Positions 54,013 to 64,000 of a DNA stretch of 64,000 nt are shown piece after piece. A program made the translations under genes and the position numbers. The first letter of the stretch is position 1, and every line of letters starts with the position of its first letter. The notes below the pieces were generated by a model. That model made no database searches, was not told the origin of the DNA, and was given only the letters and a program-made list of their open reading frames with translations. Source of the stretch: Hydrogenovibrio sp. SC-1 (GTDB lineage: Bacteria; Pseudomonadota; Gammaproteobacteria; Thiomicrospirales; Thiomicrospiraceae). The stretch is from the NCBI RefSeq assembly GCF_002848135.1, contig NZ_PKGB01000003.1:124001-188000 (forward strand). Reading direction: 5' to 3'.

Positions 54013-54690
54013 TTAGAGCTTTGGGTACTGAAAATTCTCAAAGTCACGTTTATAGAGTTCGTGAATGAGATCTAATTCAGCTTGACTCAGTTCTGAAGGG
54101 TCTAAGCCTTTTTTATAAGTCCCTTTGCGATGGTGTTCTAATTTTAAGTCGGGGATATCCAGTCGTTGTGCCAGTTGTTCACAGTCTTGCTGAATATGTT
54201 CAAATCGTCCGATATGATTCACTAGGCATTCACCATGATGGTCATATATAAAGCTAGTTTGATCTTCTAAAAGCGCAAAGCGCTGAACTCGGGTTCGAAA
54301 AGCTTTTTGAGACCCTTTTAATCGCCACTCAAGGTAAGCCTCAAAAGTTTGTTTGTTGACTATGTTGGCATATTTTTTATAAACGTAGGTTTTTAAAAAG
54401 TGGTAATGCGAATAGGCATGGGTGTAAGGAGATCGCACAAATGCAAACCGATAATAACTATCATAGACTTCGGGTGATAGTTTTTGACGGACAAAATTAG
54501 CGGTATCATGCATTTCAAACCAGGCTTTTTCAGGATTGACGGGGCCGCCAATTGGAAGAGCTCTGCGAATCGCACGCCAGGTTGTCATGGTTCTCGAGTT
54601 GGCGTATGGGTGAAGTTTTTTGGCGATTGAGGTGCCGGCCGTTTTAGGAATATGAATGAAAATAAAATTTTTCTGGTTTGAAATGACCAT
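54013..54690 (-). CDS. Sulfotransferase-family protein
   Basis: A 225-residue cytoplasmic protein with the PAPS-binding loop IFIHIPKTAGTS (5'-phosphosulfate site) near residue 10 and FAFVRSPYTHAYSHY (3'-phosphate site) near residue 85, typical of the Sulfotransfer_2 family. It probably moves a sulfate group from PAPS to a carbohydrate. It lies downstream of the lipid A acyltransferase on the same strand, 93 bases away, which suggests a glycolipid or LPS substrate; this is not shown by sequence. Confidence 0.75.
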   Translation of the reverse strand: MVISNQKNFIFIHIPKTAGTSIAKKLHPYANSRTMTTWRAIRRALPIGGPVNPEKAWFEMHDTANFVRQKLSPEVYDSYYRFAFVRSPYTHAYSHYHFLKTYVYKKYANIVNKQTFEAYLEWRLKGSQKAFRTRVQRFALLEDQTSFIYDHHGECLVNHIGRFEHIQQDCEQLAQRLDIPDLKLEHHRKGTYKKGLDPSELSQAELDLIHELYKRDFENFQYPKL

Positions 54691-57448: not shown

Positions 57449-58111
57449 TTATTCGCGTTTTAAAAGTTTATCGACAACAATATTTGCCCAGCCGGCACTG
57501 ACAAATTTTTGATTCAAAGCGGGTTTGTCGTAATGTTGGGTGACCCACTCCATAAAGGTGGTTCCTGGGTGTTGTTTTTCATAGGCCATAAACGCATCAA
57601 AAAAATAATCAAGTTTGCCTGTATTGGCCCAGCGAAAATGGCCATATTTCATGCTAAGCTCTGAAACAGCTTTTTGAATCGGTTGTTTGAGGATGAAGTG
57701 TTTGTAAAATACGCTCATGAGTCCGGCTCGATCAGCGCCTGATTTGCAGTGGATTAAAATCGGGTATTCAGCGGTTTCTAAAATTTCTTTAGCCTTAATG
57801 ATTTCTTCTACTTCCGGTAATCTACGGGAGGACATGACATGATTGACAAGGATTAAGCCCAGTTTGTCACAAGCCGCTTTTTCAAAAAGGTACGGGCCTT
57901 TGGTGTCTGCGCGGCGCATGCTGACAATGGTTTTGACGCCATATTTTTTTTGGACTTTTTTAAGAAAGCCTGCAGAAGGGTGATTGCTCCGATAAGCGTC
58001 CGCTGATAACCGGTGAAAATTTCGATAAAGTTTGCGCAAAATTTCATGGTCAATAAACCAAGTTTCAAAAAAGGCGATTAATTTGCCTCGTAAAGAGAGT
58101 TGCTTTTCCAT
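57449..58111 (-). CDS. Protein-tyrosine/dual-specificity phosphatase-like protein
   Basis: A 220-residue Cys-based phosphatase with the P-loop [14 protein letters not shown] (HCx5R) near residue 123 and a possible general-acid region before it. Bacterial members of this family often sit in LPS clusters and may act on a lipid A or sugar phosphate, but that is context only. ATG 58111 is preferred to 58123. Divergent from hldD across 147 bases. Confidence 0.7.
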
Positions 58112-58173
58112 TCTTCCAGTCACGTCAATTTAATCCGATATTTTACCTTTTTTAGCCATTATCGTGGTGTAAA

Positions 58174-58182
58174 TGATAAAAT
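58174..58182 (+). promoter_or_regulatory. Possible extended -10 promoter of hldD
   Basis: TGATAAAAT (TG-N plus TAAAAT) 77 bases before the hldD ATG. No convincing -35 box. It sits in the divergent region with the phosphatase gene. Confidence 0.35.
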
Positions 58183-58258
58183 TATCCGTTATATGTCCAG
58201 TGTTTTGTTGTGTGTTGAGCCAACAAAAGACTTAGTTAAGCAGATGATGGAGAATTTT

Positions 58259-59227
58259 ATGATCGTGGTCACGGGTGGAGCTGGGTTTGTCGGCTCAAAT
58301 ATTGTGAAGGGATTAAATGCCCAAGGGCGCAAAGATATCTTAGTGGTTGATAACTTAAAGAATGGCCATAAATTTATTAACCTTGCTGACTGCGATATTG
58401 CAGATTATTTGGACAAAGAAGATTTTCAATCCCGAATCTTTGCAGAAGAAGGCTTGCCAGATATTGAGTGTATCTTTCACGAAGGGGCTTGCTCAGCCAC
58501 CACTGAGTGGGATGGCAAATATATGATGGACAATAATTATGAATATTCGAAAGATATATTGAATTATTGTTTGAATCGCAAAATTCCTTTTTTGTATGCC
58601 TCTTCAGCAGCGGTTTACGGCGAAGGGCCAGAGTTTGTCGAATCTCGTGAATATGAAAAGCCTTTAAATGTATATGGCTATTCAAAATTTCAGTTTGACC
58701 AATATGTGCGCCGTATTTTGCCGTTGGCCGAAAGTCAGGTGGCTGGATTCCGCTATTTTAATGTCTATGGTCCTCGTGAACAACATAAGGGCGACATGGC
58801 GAGCGTAGCCTTTAAGCTCCATCGTCAAATACTGGCTGGCGAAAATGTAAAGTTGTTTGGCGCTTATGATGGCTATGAAGCTGGCATGCAGAGTCGAGAT
58901 TTTGTGTATATTGATGATGTTGTTAATGTGAATCTTTGGTTTATGGAAAATCCAGATCAATCTGGTATCTTTAATTTAGGTCCCGCGGCAGCGGAACCGT
59001 TTAAGCACATTGCGGAAGCGGTGATTCGGTTTCATGGTAAAGGCGAAATTGAATATATTCCTTTCCCAGAACACTTGAAGGGTGCTTATCAGAGTTTTAC
59101 TCAAGCGGATAACCAGCAGCTGAGAGAGGCTGGGTATCAACAGCCATTTCACTCGGTTGCTGAAGGGGTTGAGAAATATTTGACTTGGTTAACTGAGAAT
59201 CCACACGTTCTCGAGTTTGCAAAATAG
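58259..59227 (+). CDS. hldD: ADP-L-glycero-D-manno-heptose 6-epimerase
   Basis: A 322-residue NAD(P)-dependent extended SDR that makes the L,D-heptose donor for the LPS inner core. It opens [19 protein letters not shown], and has [26 protein letters not shown] and [14 protein letters not shown], all typical of HldD. ATG 58259 follows GGAG; the frame extends upstream to 58100 without family similarity. waaC follows directly. Confidence 0.95.
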
Positions 59228-59231
59228 AACT

Positions 59232-60269
59232 GTGCGCATATTACTGATTAAAATGTCGTCCATGGGCGATGTTTTTCATACCTTTCCCGCCTTAACGGAT
59301 GCAATGCAAAATCAACCAGGCCTGGTGGTTGACTGGGTGGTTGAAGAGGCATTTCAAGAAATTCCAAAGTGGCATCCTGTGGTGGATCAGGTTTATTCTA
59401 TTCGGCTTCGCCAATGGCGCAAGCATCCCATTCGATTTCGTCAAGAAATTAAAGCGTTTTTTGAGAGAGTGAATCAAACGCATTATGATTTGGTTATCGA
59501 TGCGCAAGGGTTATTGAAAAGTGCATGGGTGGTGTCAAAGATTAAGGAGCCTATAGCGGGGATGGACTGGGGCAGTGCCCGTGAAAAGTTGGCATCTTTG
59601 TTTTATCAGCATAAGTATCCGGTTGCAAAACATCAGCATGCGATTTCGCGGTTAAGAGAATTATTTGCCAGAGTCTTAGATTATCCTTTACCAGCAAAGG
59701 AGACGTTAGACTACCATTTAGCAACCCAAGCTTGGCAGAAGTTACCGCAATTAGCAGATGACTATATGGTGTTTTTACACGGTACCACCTGGGACACAAA
59801 GTTATGGCCAGAAGCCTATTGGATTGAATTGCTCAATAGGGTTGTGGCGCAAGGTAAGCAAGTGGTTTTGCCTTGGGGCAACGAAGAAGAGAAGCAACGG
59901 GCAAAGCGGATTGCTAAGACTGTTGAAAGTGACCATACCCCTTCGGGCATAAAGGCCTGGGTGCCGAATCAGAAACTGGATTTAAATACCATGGCCTGTT
60001 GTTTAAAATTTGCCAAAGCGGTCGTGTCAGTCGATACTGGCCTGTCACATGTTGCGGCAGCCTTGGATGTACCGATGGTTGTCATCTACCGAGTGACGGA
60101 TCCAGATTTGGTTGGGGCTTTAGGAAACAAGGTTAGGTATGTGGTCTCTCCACTTGCAAAGCACTATCTTAAATCGTTTGCGCCCGGTGACGAGGACGAA
60201 TCTAAACGAGGAATTCAGGTCACCGATGTTTGTCGAGCGCTAGAAGGGATAGCAAGTGGGAAAAGCTAG
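59232..60269 (+). CDS. waaC: LPS heptosyltransferase I
   Basis: A GT9 enzyme of 345 residues that adds the first heptose to Kdo on lipid A. The N-terminus (M)RILLIKMSSMGDVFHTFPAL matches WaaC, and HGTTWDTKLWPE plus VSVDTGLSHVAAALDVPMV line the donor site. GTG 59232 is preferred because it gives the usual start; a TTG at 59217 overlaps hldD. A CCAGGCCTGG copy at 59316 encodes QPGLVV. Confidence 0.92.
   Translation: MRILLIKMSSMGDVFHTFPALTDAMQNQPGLVVDWVVEEAFQEIPKWHPVVDQVYSIRLRQWRKHPIRFRQEIKAFFERVNQTHYDLVIDAQGLLKSAWVVSKIKEPIAGMDWGSAREKLASLFYQHKYPVAKHQHAISRLRELFARVLDYPLPAKETLDYHLATQAWQKLPQLADDYMVFLHGTTWDTKLWPEAYWIELLNRVVAQGKQVVLPWGNEEEKQRAKRIAKTVESDHTPSGIKAWVPNQKLDLNTMACCLKFAKAVVSVDTGLSHVAAALDVPMVVIYRVTDPDLVGALGNKVRYVVSPLAKHYLKSFAPGDEDESKRGIQVTDVCRALEGIASGKS
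59316..59325. repeat. Iterated palindrome copy in waaC
   Basis: Exact CCAGGCCTGG, read as QPGLVV. Confidence 0.9.
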
Positions 60270-61341
60270 CGTGCTATATATGCCGTCGACCCCTCTGAAT
60301 ATATTGGTCGCAACCGCACATGCATTGGCGCATGCTGAATCACAGTGCTCAAGTTTGGTGCTGATTGATCAAAAAAATATTGAACATAACCCTTACATTC
60401 AAGCCTTAGATAATTGGCAGGGATCGCCGTTTCAAAGCCTTTCAATTTTGCCCGGACAACAGACCGGGTGGAAAAAACTGAGGGAGCGCCGGCAGAGTTT
60501 TAAATCGTTAAAAGCCTTGTTGGATAAAATATCGCCTCAGGCCATTGCTGTCAGTAGTGATCGACGTATCGAGTTTCAATTTGCGATGCAATATCAGCGA
60601 CAACATCAGTCTTGTATTGGGGTGTATTTAGACGATGGCTTGTATTCTTATGCAGGGCGAAGAACTACCGCATTGGAGACGATTTTGGGACGAGTTGCCA
60701 AGAAACTGGCTTATGGTGCTTGGTGGAATGAACCTGTACAGGTGGGAAGCTCAAGTTGGATCGATCAGGCCTGGTTGTTTCAACCGGATTCGGCGATTAC
60801 AGACTATCAACAAAAGTCGATTTATGCCTTGCGGCCAGAATGGTTTGCTTCCGAACCTATTCAAGAGTTAGGGCTGGCTTTGTTTTCGGCAATGGGCGCC
60901 TCGACAACTTCAATGCTGGAGTTGAAGGAGGTTGATGTCTGTCTTTTAATTGCACACCCAAATAATATTTTAAAAATGCAAAATTACCAGCAAAAGGTTG
61001 AAGATTTTATTTTGGCCTTAACGCGGCGAGGTTTGAAGGTAGCGATTAAGTATCACCCGAGAGTGAAAGATGGAGATCCTTTGAATCTAAAAGAACGGGT
61101 GGGTTTTGTGATACCTTCTCAGTTGGCGTTTGAATTTGTGCTACCACAGTTTAAGGATGCCATTATGATTGTGGGCGATGTCGGCACTTCCGTGTTGACG
61201 GCCAAGTGGTTGAAAAGCCAATCTCAGGTATATGCGGTACTGTATGAGGATGATCCGTTTCAGTTGAGTTTTGCTGCATTATTTTCCCAGTTGGGGGTGG
61301 CGGTAGTTCCAACTTATCAAGCAATTTTTGACAATGACTAA
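60256..61341 (+). CDS. Putative glycosyltransferase, polysialyltransferase-like
   Basis: A 361-residue protein with GTG start, overlapping waaC by 14 bases. It has VYLDDGLYSYAG in the middle and VGDVGTSVLTAKWLKS near the end, an arrangement that resembles GT52 / alpha-2,8-polysialyltransferase-like proteins; the similarity is weak and I am not sure of the family. No signal peptide or membrane helix is seen. Located among LPS genes, it probably extends the core or a capsule-like glycan. Confidence 0.45.
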   Translation: MGKASVLYMPSTPLNILVATAHALAHAESQCSSLVLIDQKNIEHNPYIQALDNWQGSPFQSLSILPGQQTGWKKLRERRQSFKSLKALLDKISPQAIAVSSDRRIEFQFAMQYQRQHQSCIGVYLDDGLYSYAGRRTTALETILGRVAKKLAYGAWWNEPVQVGSSSWIDQAWLFQPDSAITDYQQKSIYALRPEWFASEPIQELGLALFSAMGASTTSMLELKEVDVCLLIAHPNNILKMQNYQQKVEDFILALTRRGLKVAIKYHPRVKDGDPLNLKERVGFVIPSQLAFEFVLPQFKDAIMIVGDVGTSVLTAKWLKSQSQVYAVLYEDDPFQLSFAALFSQLGVAVVPTYQAIFDND

Positions 61342-61359: not shown

Positions 61360-61971
61360 TTGAAAGCAGTAAAAGACATTCAGCAGCTCGCCAACTTGGT
61401 AAAAGGTAAAAGGGTTGCGATTATTGGCAATTCCCAAAAACTTCAGGCTAAGGGCGAAGAGATTGATGCGTTTGATATTGTCGTGCGCATGAATCGCGCT
61501 TGGGATTTGCCTACAGCAATGAAACAAGATGTTGGCACCAAGACTGATATTGTTTGTTTATCTGCTGACCGAGAAAAGCTTGCCACAATTTTATCTAGAT
61601 ATTCAGATGTGGTGTGGATGACACCAAAGAAGCGTTCAGAACTGGAGCCTTTGTTGTTGCCAAGTCTTTTCTTTTACCCGCTAGATTACTGGAAGTCATT
61701 GCACCAACAGCTGGGTGCTCGCCCTTCAACAGGATGTATGGTTTTCGATTTGTTTTCAAGGTTAGTGGACAAGGGACATTTAACAATGTATGGGTTTGAT
61801 TTTTTTCAAAATCCAAACTGGTATGATATGCCTGCAAAAACTAACTGGCTGCGCCGCATTTTTAATCGTCATCGGAAAAGCAGTCCGCATGATTGGTCGG
61901 CTGAAAAAGCCTATATTTTGGCTGAAGCAGAAAAACAAAATATTACAATTAAAAAACTGGATGAGATGTAG
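61360..61971 (+). CDS. GT29 sialyltransferase-motif protein
   Basis: A 203-residue protein with TTG start preceded by AAAGGG. All GT29 sialylmotifs can be read: motif L VAIIGNSQKLQAKGEEIDAF then DIVVRMNRA and DVGTKTDIV; motif S RPSTGCMVFDLFSRL with MYGFDFF; motif VS HDWSAE (HX4E). GT29 is best known from animals and plants, where it uses CMP-sugars such as CMP-sialic acid. Here the protein is much shorter and lacks a membrane anchor, as in bacterial homologues. In an LPS core operon a CMP-Kdo or CMP-sialic-acid donor is plausible but unproven. Confidence 0.8.
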   Translation: MKAVKDIQQLANLVKGKRVAIIGNSQKLQAKGEEIDAFDIVVRMNRAWDLPTAMKQDVGTKTDIVCLSADREKLATILSRYSDVVWMTPKKRSELEPLLLPSLFFYPLDYWKSLHQQLGARPSTGCMVFDLFSRLVDKGHLTMYGFDFFQNPNWYDMPAKTNWLRRIFNRHRKSSPHDWSAEKAYILAEAEKQNITIKKLDEM

Positions 61972-61973
61972 TC

Positions 61974-63011
61974 GTGGAACAAGGCACCATAAAACGCGTC
62001 GCAATTATTAATGATACTGATCCAACACACCATTTTGGTTGTATGTTGGTGATGGAAAATCTACGATTCTTGCTGAAGCAACAAGGGGTAGACGTTGTAT
62101 GGACATGGCCGGTTGGGGTTGATTGGCGAAAGCATAAAAAAGCCATTCAGAAAAAAGATCGGGTGGATGCTTTTATTGTGAATGGAGAAGGCACGATTCA
62201 TCATAGTGCAGAGCGTAAGCATGCAAGAGCTTTATCTGAGTTTGCAGAGTTTGCTAAAGAAGCTTTTGATGTTGATTCCTATTTAATTAATGCTACCTTG
62301 TTTCAAAATGAAGCCAGTGAATACGCTAGTATGCGTGCCTTTAAGAAGATTTATGTGAGAGATAAAAGCAGTCTGACCGAGTTACAGAGTTTTGGGCTTC
62401 ATGGACGTTATATACCCGATTTAACGTTTGCCAAAAATGATTACCAGTTTGAAAAAATCGTCGAGTCAGAAAAGGCGGATGCCTGTGTAATTGACAGTGC
62501 TTTAAAATCAGAGCTGCCGTTTTTGAAGCGCTATTGCCTACAAAGAGGCTATGCCTTTCGTTCCATGGTGGTAGCAAGGCTGTCTAACGTCAATTTCTTT
62601 AAAAGCCCAAGACCCTTTGTTAAAAATTTTTATAAGTGGTTAACGCAAGATCGTTTGACTTCGATTCGGCCAAGAGATTTTATTCAGTTTCTGAAGTCGC
62701 ATCGTTTGGTGATTACTGGACGCTATCATACTGTCACCATGTGCATTAAACAGCAGATTCCATTTATCGCTTTTGAGTCGAATACGCCTAAAGTCAGTTT
62801 TTTACTCAGTGATGTTTTTAATCATACGGGTCGAGTTGTGCCAATGCAAAATATTGAACAAATTTCGATAGACCATTGGGCGAACTTTACTGCTAAAGAG
62901 CGGGAGCAGATGCAACAGTTCGTCTCTGCCGCTGAAGCAGATATTTCAGAGATGATAAAGTGCATTGTTGATGACATTAATATGACTAAAACGAATCAGG
63001 GTATTGAGTAA
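61974..63011 (+). CDS. Polysaccharide pyruvyltransferase-family protein
   Basis: A 345-residue protein with GTG start right after the GT29 stop. FIVNGEGTIHHS near residue 66, YVRDKSSLTELQS near 130, and the C-terminal VITGRYHTVTMCIKQQIPFI (20 residues) match the family that adds ketal pyruvate from PEP to glycans, or in some cases moves sugars. Its donor is not readable. With the neighbours it would decorate the outer core. Confidence 0.72.
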   Translation: MEQGTIKRVAIINDTDPTHHFGCMLVMENLRFLLKQQGVDVVWTWPVGVDWRKHKKAIQKKDRVDAFIVNGEGTIHHSAERKHARALSEFAEFAKEAFDVDSYLINATLFQNEASEYASMRAFKKIYVRDKSSLTELQSFGLHGRYIPDLTFAKNDYQFEKIVESEKADACVIDSALKSELPFLKRYCLQRGYAFRSMVVARLSNVNFFKSPRPFVKNFYKWLTQDRLTSIRPRDFIQFLKSHRLVITGRYHTVTMCIKQQIPFIAFESNTPKVSFLLSDVFNHTGRVVPMQNIEQISIDHWANFTAKEREQMQQFVSAAEADISEMIKCIVDDINMTKTNQGIE

Positions 63012-63012
63012 G

Positions 63013-63753
63013 ATGAATCAAAATACCATTAATGTCGTTTGTTTGAAGTGGGGTGAGAAATATCCTGCTGAAGACGTGAATAGACTTTATCGAATGGTCT
63101 CCAAGAATTTACAGTTGCCGTTTAAGTTTTATTGTATTACCGACGATACGGCTGGTTTACTGACTGAAGTCGAGGCCTTGCCAATTTTTCAGCCTGAATT
63201 AGCGGGTTGGTGGCACAAATTGTCAATCTACCGTAAAGATTTTTATGGATTAAATGGTACCGTGCTCTTTCTCGATTTGGATGTGGTGATAACTGGGAAT
63301 CTTGATGAACTGTTTAGCTACAAACCAGGGGAAGTCTGTTCTGTAAAGGATTATGGTAAATGCAAATGGGGCAAGATTAACAGTTCGGTCGTTCGGTTTG
63401 AGGTGGGACAGCTGGATTATGTTTGGCTAGGCTTTTTGGCTAATCAACAGTGGATTGTTGATCATATGCATGGCGATCAAGACTGGCTAGGGCGAGTCGC
63501 GCCATTTATTGAATTGTACCCGTCTGACTGGGTTGTTTCCTATAAAAAACACTGTCAGGCAAGAGGGTTAAAACTATTGGGGATCGGCGATTGGTTAATG
63601 AGAAAAGGCTGGTTGCAGCCAATGGGCGAGTCGAAAGTTCCGCTAGATACGAAAATCGTGTTATTTCATGGTAAGCCTGACCCAATAGATGTTGTGAGCA
63701 CCCCTTATAAAATATGGAAAAAAGCACCTTGGATAAAACAGTACTGGGATTAA
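63013..63753 (+). CDS. Glycosyltransferase with DXD motif (GT-A type)
   Basis: A 246-residue cytoplasmic protein. VLFLDLDVVITGNLDEL carries the DXD metal-nucleotide motif seen in GT8-like transferases; FYCITDD and a W-rich ending also fit. ATG 63013 starts two bases after the pyruvyltransferase stop; a TTG lies at 63004. Its sugar is unknown. The next gene overlaps its 3' end by 40 bases. Confidence 0.65.
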   Translation: MNQNTINVVCLKWGEKYPAEDVNRLYRMVSKNLQLPFKFYCITDDTAGLLTEVEALPIFQPELAGWWHKLSIYRKDFYGLNGTVLFLDLDVVITGNLDELFSYKPGEVCSVKDYGKCKWGKINSSVVRFEVGQLDYVWLGFLANQQWIVDHMHGDQDWLGRVAPFIELYPSDWVVSYKKHCQARGLKLLGIGDWLMRKGWLQPMGESKVPLDTKIVLFHGKPDPIDVVSTPYKIWKKAPWIKQYWD

Positions 63754-64000
63754 CGCCGCAAGATACATTTAAAATTGCGATTTTTACAACGGCAGGTTGG
63801 TCATTGATGTTGACTAAATTAATGTCGTTCGAAAATATGTTTTTGCTGTTGGCGATGGTGTCGGCTCTGAGTTTTCGAGCACCAGTGAAGGAATTTTCTT
63901 GGATTGATACCAAATGGTTATGGGTGTTAGCAGGCGTGTTTTTTGGCCTATCTGCTTTACCTCTACTGTTTTATTGGCCACTTGGAGAGCCATCCTTTCA
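63714..64000 (+). CDS. N-terminal fragment of a membrane protein, possible O-antigen ligase
   Basis: An open frame from ATG 63714 that runs off the right edge (95 residues seen). It starts MEKSTLDKTVLGLTPQDTF and then has hydrophobic segments at about residues 22-50 and 66-85, with Trp-rich loops. O-antigen ligase (WaaL) or a Wzy-type polymerase would fit this LPS position and the topology, but no diagnostic motif lies in the visible part. It overlaps the preceding glycosyltransferase by 40 bases. Confidence 0.55.
   Translation, partial: MEKSTLDKTVLGLTPQDTFKIAIFTTAGWSLMLTKLMSFENMFLLLAMVSALSFRAPVKEFSWIDTKWLWVLAGVFFGLSALPLLFYWPLGEPSF

Follow-up and report, generated by a model that had tools for sequence, protein, structure and literature searches.

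What does a small protein of glycosyltransferase family GT29, to which the animal sialyltransferases belong, do among the lipopolysaccharide (LPS) genes of a gammaproteobacterium, and which sugar does it transfer? The question is raised by Hydrogenovibrio sp. SC-1, in which a stretch of 64,000 nucleotides (positions 124,001 to 188,000 of contig NZ_PKGB01000003.1, hereafter the window) had been said, in a preliminary description, to encode a 203-residue GT29 protein with clear sialylmotifs L, S and VS in an LPS operon, with Kdo as a possible ancestral sugar of the family. Below, genomes, contigs and loci carry our own numbers (G, C and L, respectively).

The open reading frame lies exactly at 61360-61971 on the plus strand, with a TTG start and 203 codons before the stop, between a gene that ends at 61341 and one that begins at 61974; on the minus strand over the same interval, there is no overlapping open reading frame of 90 aa or more, and the one minus frame that was translated contains several stops. 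The protein scores 47.6 bits (E 1.9e-12) with the Pfam profile PF00777 (Glyco_transf_29), whose cut-off is 23; the lack of a profile match, which the preliminary description had named as a refutation, was thus not seen. Because this alignment covers only residues 17-69, i.e., the L-motif region (profile positions 55-107 of 272), the rest of the protein was tested separately. When 177,635 distinct PDB sequences were searched by phmmer with this protein alone, five matched at E<=10, all of them animal sialyltransferases, with ST3Gal-I (2wml) at the top (whole-sequence E 7.6e-7, two stretches aligned); taken alone, the S stretch aligns weakly to the same enzyme. The profile of alignment A2, which consists of 46 rows (the window protein and 45 of the 79 loci from a named genome collection; the other alignments, A1, A3 and A4, have 9, 12 and 9 rows), produced eight PDB matches at E<=10, all eight to sialyltransferases of the GT29 kind (ST3Gal-I, ST8Sia-III, ST6GalNAc-II and ST6Gal-I). 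NCBIfam gave no match at E up to 0.1. A GT-D-like Pfam match was rejected, being below its cut-off (12.9 bits against 27) and overlapped by the GT29 match. The protein and its motifs are laid out as follows.

61360-61971, plus strand: GT29-type glycosyltransferase, 203 aa, by PF00777 (47.6 bits), PDB profile search and AlphaFold2 fold (Z 15.0 to ST3Gal-I)
61408-61566, plus strand: sialylmotif L region, residues 17-69, with GNS at 23-25 and VVRMN at 41-45 (Pfam match; G23, N24, R43 and N45 invariant in 46 of 46 rows)
61723-61806, plus strand: sialylmotif S region, residues 122-149, with PSTG at 122-125 and YGFDFF at 144-149 (invariants of the 46 rows; low-score alignment to ST3Gal-I)
61819-61824, plus strand: motif III-like W154-Y155 (W with Y or H in Thiomicrospira-like rows)
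61885-61905, plus strand: sialylmotif VS, residues 176-182, P-H-x4-E (P176, H177 and E182 invariant in 46 of 46 rows)

In motif S, P122, T124, G125, G145, F146 and D147 are likewise invariant in all 46 rows, and position 123 is either S or T. Motif III is more variable in the same alignment, namely WY or WH in the group that includes the window protein and L-S in most rows from Rhodobacterales. The VS stretch is covered by no PDB sequence match in either the phmmer or the profile searches; its H-x4-E is presumably the VS pattern and spacing of the animal enzymes. Thus, all three motifs that had been claimed are present, with their key positions invariant.

The AlphaFold model of the protein (pLDDT 89.8) points in the same direction. 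Foldseek ranks ST6GalNAc-II (best, 1.2e-6) and ST3Gal-I first, and the best fold match by VIA-align is ST3Gal-I, with Z 15.0 and rmsd 2.9 over 173 aligned residues, so that the model has the modified GT-A fold of GT29. Z values of about 12 are reached by the GT42 sialyltransferases Cst-I and Cst-II and also by an archaeal pterin pyrophosphokinase. Placement in GT42 was rejected given the lower score (12.2 against 15.0 for ST3Gal-I) and the fact that the sequence profile finds GT29 only; the matches to pterin/thiamin pyrophosphokinases and SteA (Z 6.0 to 12.1) were set aside, since conservation falls on the sialylmotifs and, again, the profile finds GT29 only. Membership in GT29 is accordingly near certain by both sequence and predicted fold, and on this point, as on the size and position of the protein, the preliminary description was correct. 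The cysteine of the L-S disulfide of the animal enzymes is absent from residues 17-45. The frame also leaves no room for an animal-type membrane anchor: it is open over 209 aa, and in the model a helix at residues 7-14 abuts the L-motif strand at 18-22. The protein is presumably soluble.

The setting of the gene was described as LPS synthesis, and this holds, given that hldD and waaC lie upstream and an O-antigen ligase-like gene downstream:

58100-59227, plus strand: hldD, ADP-glyceromanno-heptose 6-epimerase (NF008360, 517.9 bits, cut-off 452)
59217-60269, plus strand: waaC, LPS heptosyltransferase I (TIGR02193, 333.8 bits, cut-off 185.3; below the stricter NF008204, 346.7 of 437)
60256-61341, plus strand: polysialyltransferase-like gene of PF07388, predicted GT-B fold (33.1 bits, cut-off 23.3; DDG at 126-128, HP at 267-268)
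61974-63011, plus strand: polysaccharide pyruvyltransferase-like gene of PF04230 (53.7 bits, cut-off 25.3)
63004-63753, plus strand: possible GT8-like glycosyltransferase, a weak match (PF01501, 14.7 bits, below the cut-off of 24.3)
63714-64000, plus strand: first part of an O-antigen ligase-like gene that runs past the window end and is 438 aa long in the genome (L035:11714-13030; PF04932, 66.3 bits)

The order is hldD, waaC, polysialyltransferase-like gene, GT29, PF04230, GT8-like gene and ligase-like gene, with successive gaps of -11, -14, +18, +2, -8 and -40 bp. The hldD profile match begins at residue 54, so the true start of this gene is probably downstream of the listed TTG. The succession of waaC, one or two polysialyltransferase-like genes, GT29 and PF04230 recurs in all seven other loci of the family in which both flanks are available (L036, L038, L039, L040, L056, L057 and L058); hldD is found upstream in five of these (in L036, with one frame in between) and is absent in L039 and L040. 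In L165, L166 and L167, which have the polysialyltransferase-like gene without GT29, the same hldD-waaC anchor carries other genes, suggesting that the GT29 and PF04230 genes are an optional module of a variable LPS core locus. Farther upstream, a dual-specificity-phosphatase-like gene (57449-58123) is divergent from the LPS genes; L165, L166 and L167 have it as well, in the interval from msbA to the hldD side. A sulfotransferase-family gene (54013-54690) lies between ppc and a lipid A acyltransferase gene; the interval between the latter two in L166 and L167 contains no sulfotransferase frame.

The product of the upstream PF07388 gene seems to belong to another group of transferases that use CMP-sugars. 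In a 12-row alignment, D126, G128 and H267-P268 are kept and D127 is present in at least 90% of the rows. In the accessible text of a survey of the GT29 family, D/E-D/E-G and HP are given as motifs of bacterial sialyltransferases (PMC5811610), and the available part of another paper describes the HP motif as common to beta-Kdo transferases as well (PMC5517516). The best fold match of the model (pLDDT 89.2) is the GT38 polysialyltransferase 5wc6, with Z 20.9, followed by GT80 enzymes. Since other GT-B enzymes reach Z 17.4 and lower, and Foldseek places UDP-GlcNAc 2-epimerases high in its ranking, the fold by itself is unspecific; the single-sequence PDB search with this protein found no sialyltransferase. 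Homologs are present in 45 of the 62 family genomes. Polysialic acid synthesis by this protein is unlikely because no sialic acid synthase was found in the genome. It appears, then, that two unrelated folds of the CMP-sugar-transferase type, GT29 and GT38/GT80-like, adjoin in one LPS core locus. This neighborhood bears on the possibility that the GT29 protein uses a donor other than a CMP-sugar, for example, a UDP-sugar. Plants have a GT29 member, GALT29A (listed in PMC11288761). This enzyme is a galactosyltransferase, so membership in the family does not fix the donor; nevertheless, the upstream gene is of the CMP-sugar-transferase type and the motif positions are common to the GT29 members that use CMP-sugars, so we consider a non-CMP donor very improbable.

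The GT29 gene has a scattered distribution. It is the single PF00777 match in the genome of the window (2.45 Mb, 41 contigs); among relatives, 6 of 55 genomes give a match to the profile, a figure that includes the genome of the window itself, and 14 control genomes give none. With the protein itself as query, 10 of the 62 family genomes gave a match (nine full-length and one, in G015, weak), and so did 10 of 398 genomes drawn from the phylum, own genome included, four of the ten matches being short and weak. The named genome collection, searched with two peptide patterns, contains 79 GT29 loci, which take in Hydrogenovibrio halophilus, Thiomicrospira, Thiomicrorhabdus, Oleispira, Ramlibacter, many Paracoccus and other Rhodobacterales. 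Single-sequence scans of genome contigs and viral contigs found no relative, whereas alignment-based scans did. Upstream of GT29, 61 of 91 loci have a gene cluster whose representative is Glycos_transf_1, a count that is approximate for Rhodobacterales because the codon-position score used to call open reading frames missed the GT29 frame in 16 of the 91 loci.

Several of these relatives have unusual contexts or architectures. The weak match in G015 sits in an 887-aa protein with a GDPD domain (L037:10758-13421; the GT29-like stretch scores 19.7 bits against the cut-off of 23), whose gene has an HMGL-like gene and genes for a cytidylyltransferase and an HpaI aldolase as neighbors. The uncultivated viral contigs L139 and L140 have a 1021-aa frame with a GT29 domain, and two large uncultured phage records match GT29 at 25-27% identity. 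The Rhodobacterales loci (L068-L138), a large group, often combine Glycos_transf_1 upstream with MFS and semialdehyde dehydrogenase genes in the vicinity. One contig titled as Lysobacterales (L060) shows the Thiomicrospira-type gene order, which may reflect misbinning or transfer.

The most consistent partner of GT29 is the PF04230 gene. The subfamily of this gene defined by alignment A4 is present in 8 of the 62 family genomes, all eight of which also encode a full-length GT29; in the ninth genome with a full-length GT29, G075, the GT29 gene lies at a contig end. The co-occurrence gives a Fisher value of 2.7e-9, which is not a true probability given that the genomes are related. In the named collection, a PF04230 gene was found within 3 kb of GT29 in 13 of the 79 loci and within 100 bp in 12 of these 13, by a count on six-frame translations that is independent of the ORF caller; five of the 13 (L060-L063 and L065) are of the window's type. 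The pairing is no universal one, since none of the remaining 66 loci has a PF04230 gene within 3 kb (L064 ends at a contig edge). Relative to GT29, the gene lies downstream in Oleispira, Cohaesibacter and loci of the Thiomicrospira type and upstream in L121, L123, L129 and L137 of the Rhodobacterales; in Ramlibacter, the two genes are on opposite strands. In an 83-row tree (a quick one, in which long branches meet and from which L135, L139 and L140 were left out), PF04230 neighbors are present in both main groups, with at least three changes of state when L064 (contig end) and L066 (fragmentary) are set aside. Also against a universal pairing, a second PF04230 copy in G019 (L164, contig C127) is preceded by the end of a polysialyltransferase-like gene and followed by a ligase gene, with no GT29 in between the former two. 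By this computation, GT29 and PF04230 form a two-gene unit. Neither the LPS gene order nor the pairing with PF04230 was found in the open-licence papers searched, and the steady partnership, new to us, is the element that this locus adds to the already known bacterial GT29.

Which donor this unit would use was addressed through the gene content of the genome. There are five matches to the cytidylyltransferase family, namely three KdsB-type proteins, one PseF and one unclassified 454-aa frame that, judging by its length, is probably GlmU. The three KdsB-type genes, which answer the preliminary description's call for a search for extra kdsB, are located on contigs C23, C6 and C1; two exceed the kdsB cut-off of TIGR00466, and the one on C1 passes the KdsB subfamily cut-off with a TIGR00466 score below threshold (148.7 of 155.2 bits). 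The companion search for neuB returned a single NeuB-family match, which is PseI (501 bits, cut-off 340.25) rather than a sialic acid synthase; no such synthase was found genome-wide, the score of this match being 297.3 against the N-acetylneuraminate synthase cut-off of 399.65. PseC, PseF and PseI are all present above curated cut-offs. Taken together, the KdsB-type and Pse genes indicate a supply of CMP-Kdo and probably also of CMP-pseudaminic acid, and the three KdsB-type genes, along with the failure to find a sialic acid synthase, make CMP-Kdo a likelier donor than CMP-sialic acid. The statement that CMP-sialic-acid genes are missing from the window stands for the part in which genes were examined, about 50-64 kb, and is extended by the identification of the only NeuB-family protein in the genome as PseI. 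A true sialyltransferase acting on CMP-Neu5Ac, as the family membership and the best fold match, ST3Gal-I, would have it, is hardly credible in a genome with this NeuB-family protein and this set of cytidylyltransferases.

Our preferred reading, to which we give a probability of roughly 0.55, is that the protein is a small, inverting GT29 enzyme that transfers Kdo or a Kdo-like ulosonic acid from its CMP form into the LPS core. The KdsB content and the cassettes found within GT29 arrays favor a Kdo-like ulosonic acid without proving it. The GT29 arrays of L036, L056 and L060 also encode three proteins, one HMGL-like, one KdsB-like and one a HAD phosphatase, and the proteins of this cassette are 56-76% identical between the three loci. 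The same three-gene cassette (HMGL-like protein of 532-546 aa, KdsB paralog and HAD phosphatase) is also seen in L161, L162 and L163; possibly, it makes an unusual CMP-ulosonic acid. Counting against the preferred reading, extra KdsB-type genes are also found in genomes without GT29, the third KdsB-type gene of the genome of the window lies in a polysaccharide cluster other than that of GT29, the HMGL-type cassette is absent from this genome and present in genomes that lack GT29, PseC, PseF and PseI are encoded, and PF04230 accompanies GT29 in only 13 of the 79 loci.

The main rival is pseudaminic acid or a similar nonulosonic acid, which would be transferred onto the LPS core from its CMP form. 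This would fit the Pse genes of the genome, the use of nine-carbon CMP-sugars by the animal GT29 enzymes, the presence of a NeuB-family gene in all nine genomes with a full-length GT29 and, in the L036 array, a cytidylyltransferase that matches PseF below the cut-off (53.9 of 205.7 bits). The Pse genes, however, lie apart from GT29 on contig C4, and NeuB-family genes, being present in 56 of the 62 genomes regardless of GT29, show no link to it and were dropped as a donor discriminator; moreover, in the subset of neighboring genes that was scanned, three GT29 loci have a KdsB-like gene and none has a Pse gene above cut-off. We therefore regard pseudaminic acid as unlikely. Extra KdsB was also rejected as a discriminator: at least 46 of the 62 genomes have two strong hits of the KdsB kind (E below 1e-48; classified by NCBIfam in G000, the genome of the window, and in L036 only), with or without GT29.

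A donor distinct from plain Kdo, i.e., another CMP-ulosonic acid made by an aldolase and a KdsB-like enzyme, is improbable in our view. The aldolase, phosphatase and cytidylyltransferase would supply the steps that such a pathway needs, and HMGL-like or HpcH/HpaI aldolases are encoded beside KdsB-like genes in L036, L056, L060 and L041. In the genome of the window, nevertheless, the nearest analog of the cassette, an HpcH/HpaI aldolase adjoining the third KdsB-type gene, is on C1, apart from GT29, which is on C3, and L038, L039, L040, L057 and L058 have no cassette gene in the stretch examined. As a general source of the donor, the HMGL-like protein was rejected, since it is full-length in 8 of the 62 genomes and only two of these, G058 and G019, have a full-length GT29, with the weak GT29-like protein of G015 in a third (neighbors were inspected in six of the eight, G058, G019, G015, G018, G025 and G080). 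The HMGL-like gene lies beside a distant polysialyltransferase homolog in L161 and beside the GDPD protein with the GT29-like stretch in L037. On C1 (L041:8273-9854), the aldolase adjoins a carbamoyltransferase gene as well, and the surrounding polysaccharide cluster includes a flippase-like gene.

Under the Kdo or Kdo-like reading, we propose that WaaC and the polysialyltransferase-like enzyme would act on the LPS core first, that the GT29 enzyme would then add a 3-deoxy-2-ulosonic acid, of which Kdo or a Kdo-like one is the likeliest, and that the PF04230 enzyme would next modify or extend the added residue, for example, with a pyruvate ketal. By analogy with the GT29 family, the mechanism would be inverting, with His177 of motif VS as a candidate base, and residues of motifs L and S might hold the CMP part of the donor. 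A bolder version, which we consider rather unlikely, is that GT29 and PF04230 are an obligate unit that builds a pyruvylated or capped ulosonic branch in the LPS core, and that in some lineages the donor is a new CMP-3-deoxy-ulosonic acid made by the HMGL-like aldolase, the KdsB paralog and the HAD phosphatase. If this unlikely version were true, bacterial GT29 would be of the Kdo type and the use of sialic acid in animals would be derived from it.

With or without this extension, the LPS locus allows one to ask whether the enzyme family behind animal sialosides started out with Kdo-like sugars. The partnership with PF04230 makes the sugar of GT29 testable, and a compact, anchor-free GT29 with steady partners, which has homologs also in named isolates such as Hydrogenovibrio halophilus, is a tractable enzyme.

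Among enzymes with solved structures, GT42 Cst-I and Cst-II are related to the window protein in fold but are unmatched by its sequence profile at E<=10. For the upstream gene product, the counterpart is the Mannheimia GT38 enzyme (5wc6), which is alike in the GT-B fold and in the D/E-D/E-G and HP motifs but only 13% identical. ST3Gal-I (PDB 2wnb/2wnf) is 22% identical to the window protein over 173-174 structurally aligned residues; it is a larger, membrane-anchored, disulfide-bonded enzyme that uses CMP-Neu5Ac.

The family-level part of the preliminary interpretation was anticipated in the literature. According to the part of the text available, Petit et al. (2018; PMC5811610) reported 23 bacterial GT29 sequences with sialylmotifs that are basal to the eukaryotic GT29, so that both the existence of GT29 in bacteria and the descent of the eukaryotic family from them have been in print since then; the same text states that the trees did not let the authors predict the function of the bacterial proteins. 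The idea of Kdo as a GT29 sugar is not new either, having been published for plants (PMC11288761) and for Escherichia coli K6 (PMC13171606), to go by the accessible portions of both papers; these precedents also speak for our preferred reading. Hence, what stands of that interpretation is the family, the LPS-core setting and the precedence of CMP-Kdo over CMP-sialic acid, and what falls is the novelty.

The proteins of the 2018 set, which we know by their description, share with the window protein the bacterial origin, motifs L, S, III and VS and the lack of the animal-type disulfide (PMC5811610); the LPS-core setting and the pairing with PF04230 are added here. In plants, as the available text has it, mutating the GT29 gene MGP2/RCKT1 in Arabidopsis callus leaves rhamnogalacturonan II (RG-II) without Kdo (PMC11288761), so that for this family member there is mutant evidence for Kdo; RCKT1/MGP2 is, however, a Golgi enzyme acting on pectin RG-II, whereas the window protein is anchor-free and encoded in an LPS gene cluster. 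The GT29-GT107 protein of the E. coli K6 capsule is accompanied, in its published description, by a mass spectrum that fits a homopolymer of Kdo, although the authors kept K6 as a capsule of unknown structure (PMC13171606). The K6 protein is a fusion in a capsule locus whereas the window GT29 stands alone near waaC, but both are bacterial, and the K6 GT29 domain has likewise been proposed to transfer an ulosonic acid such as Kdo.
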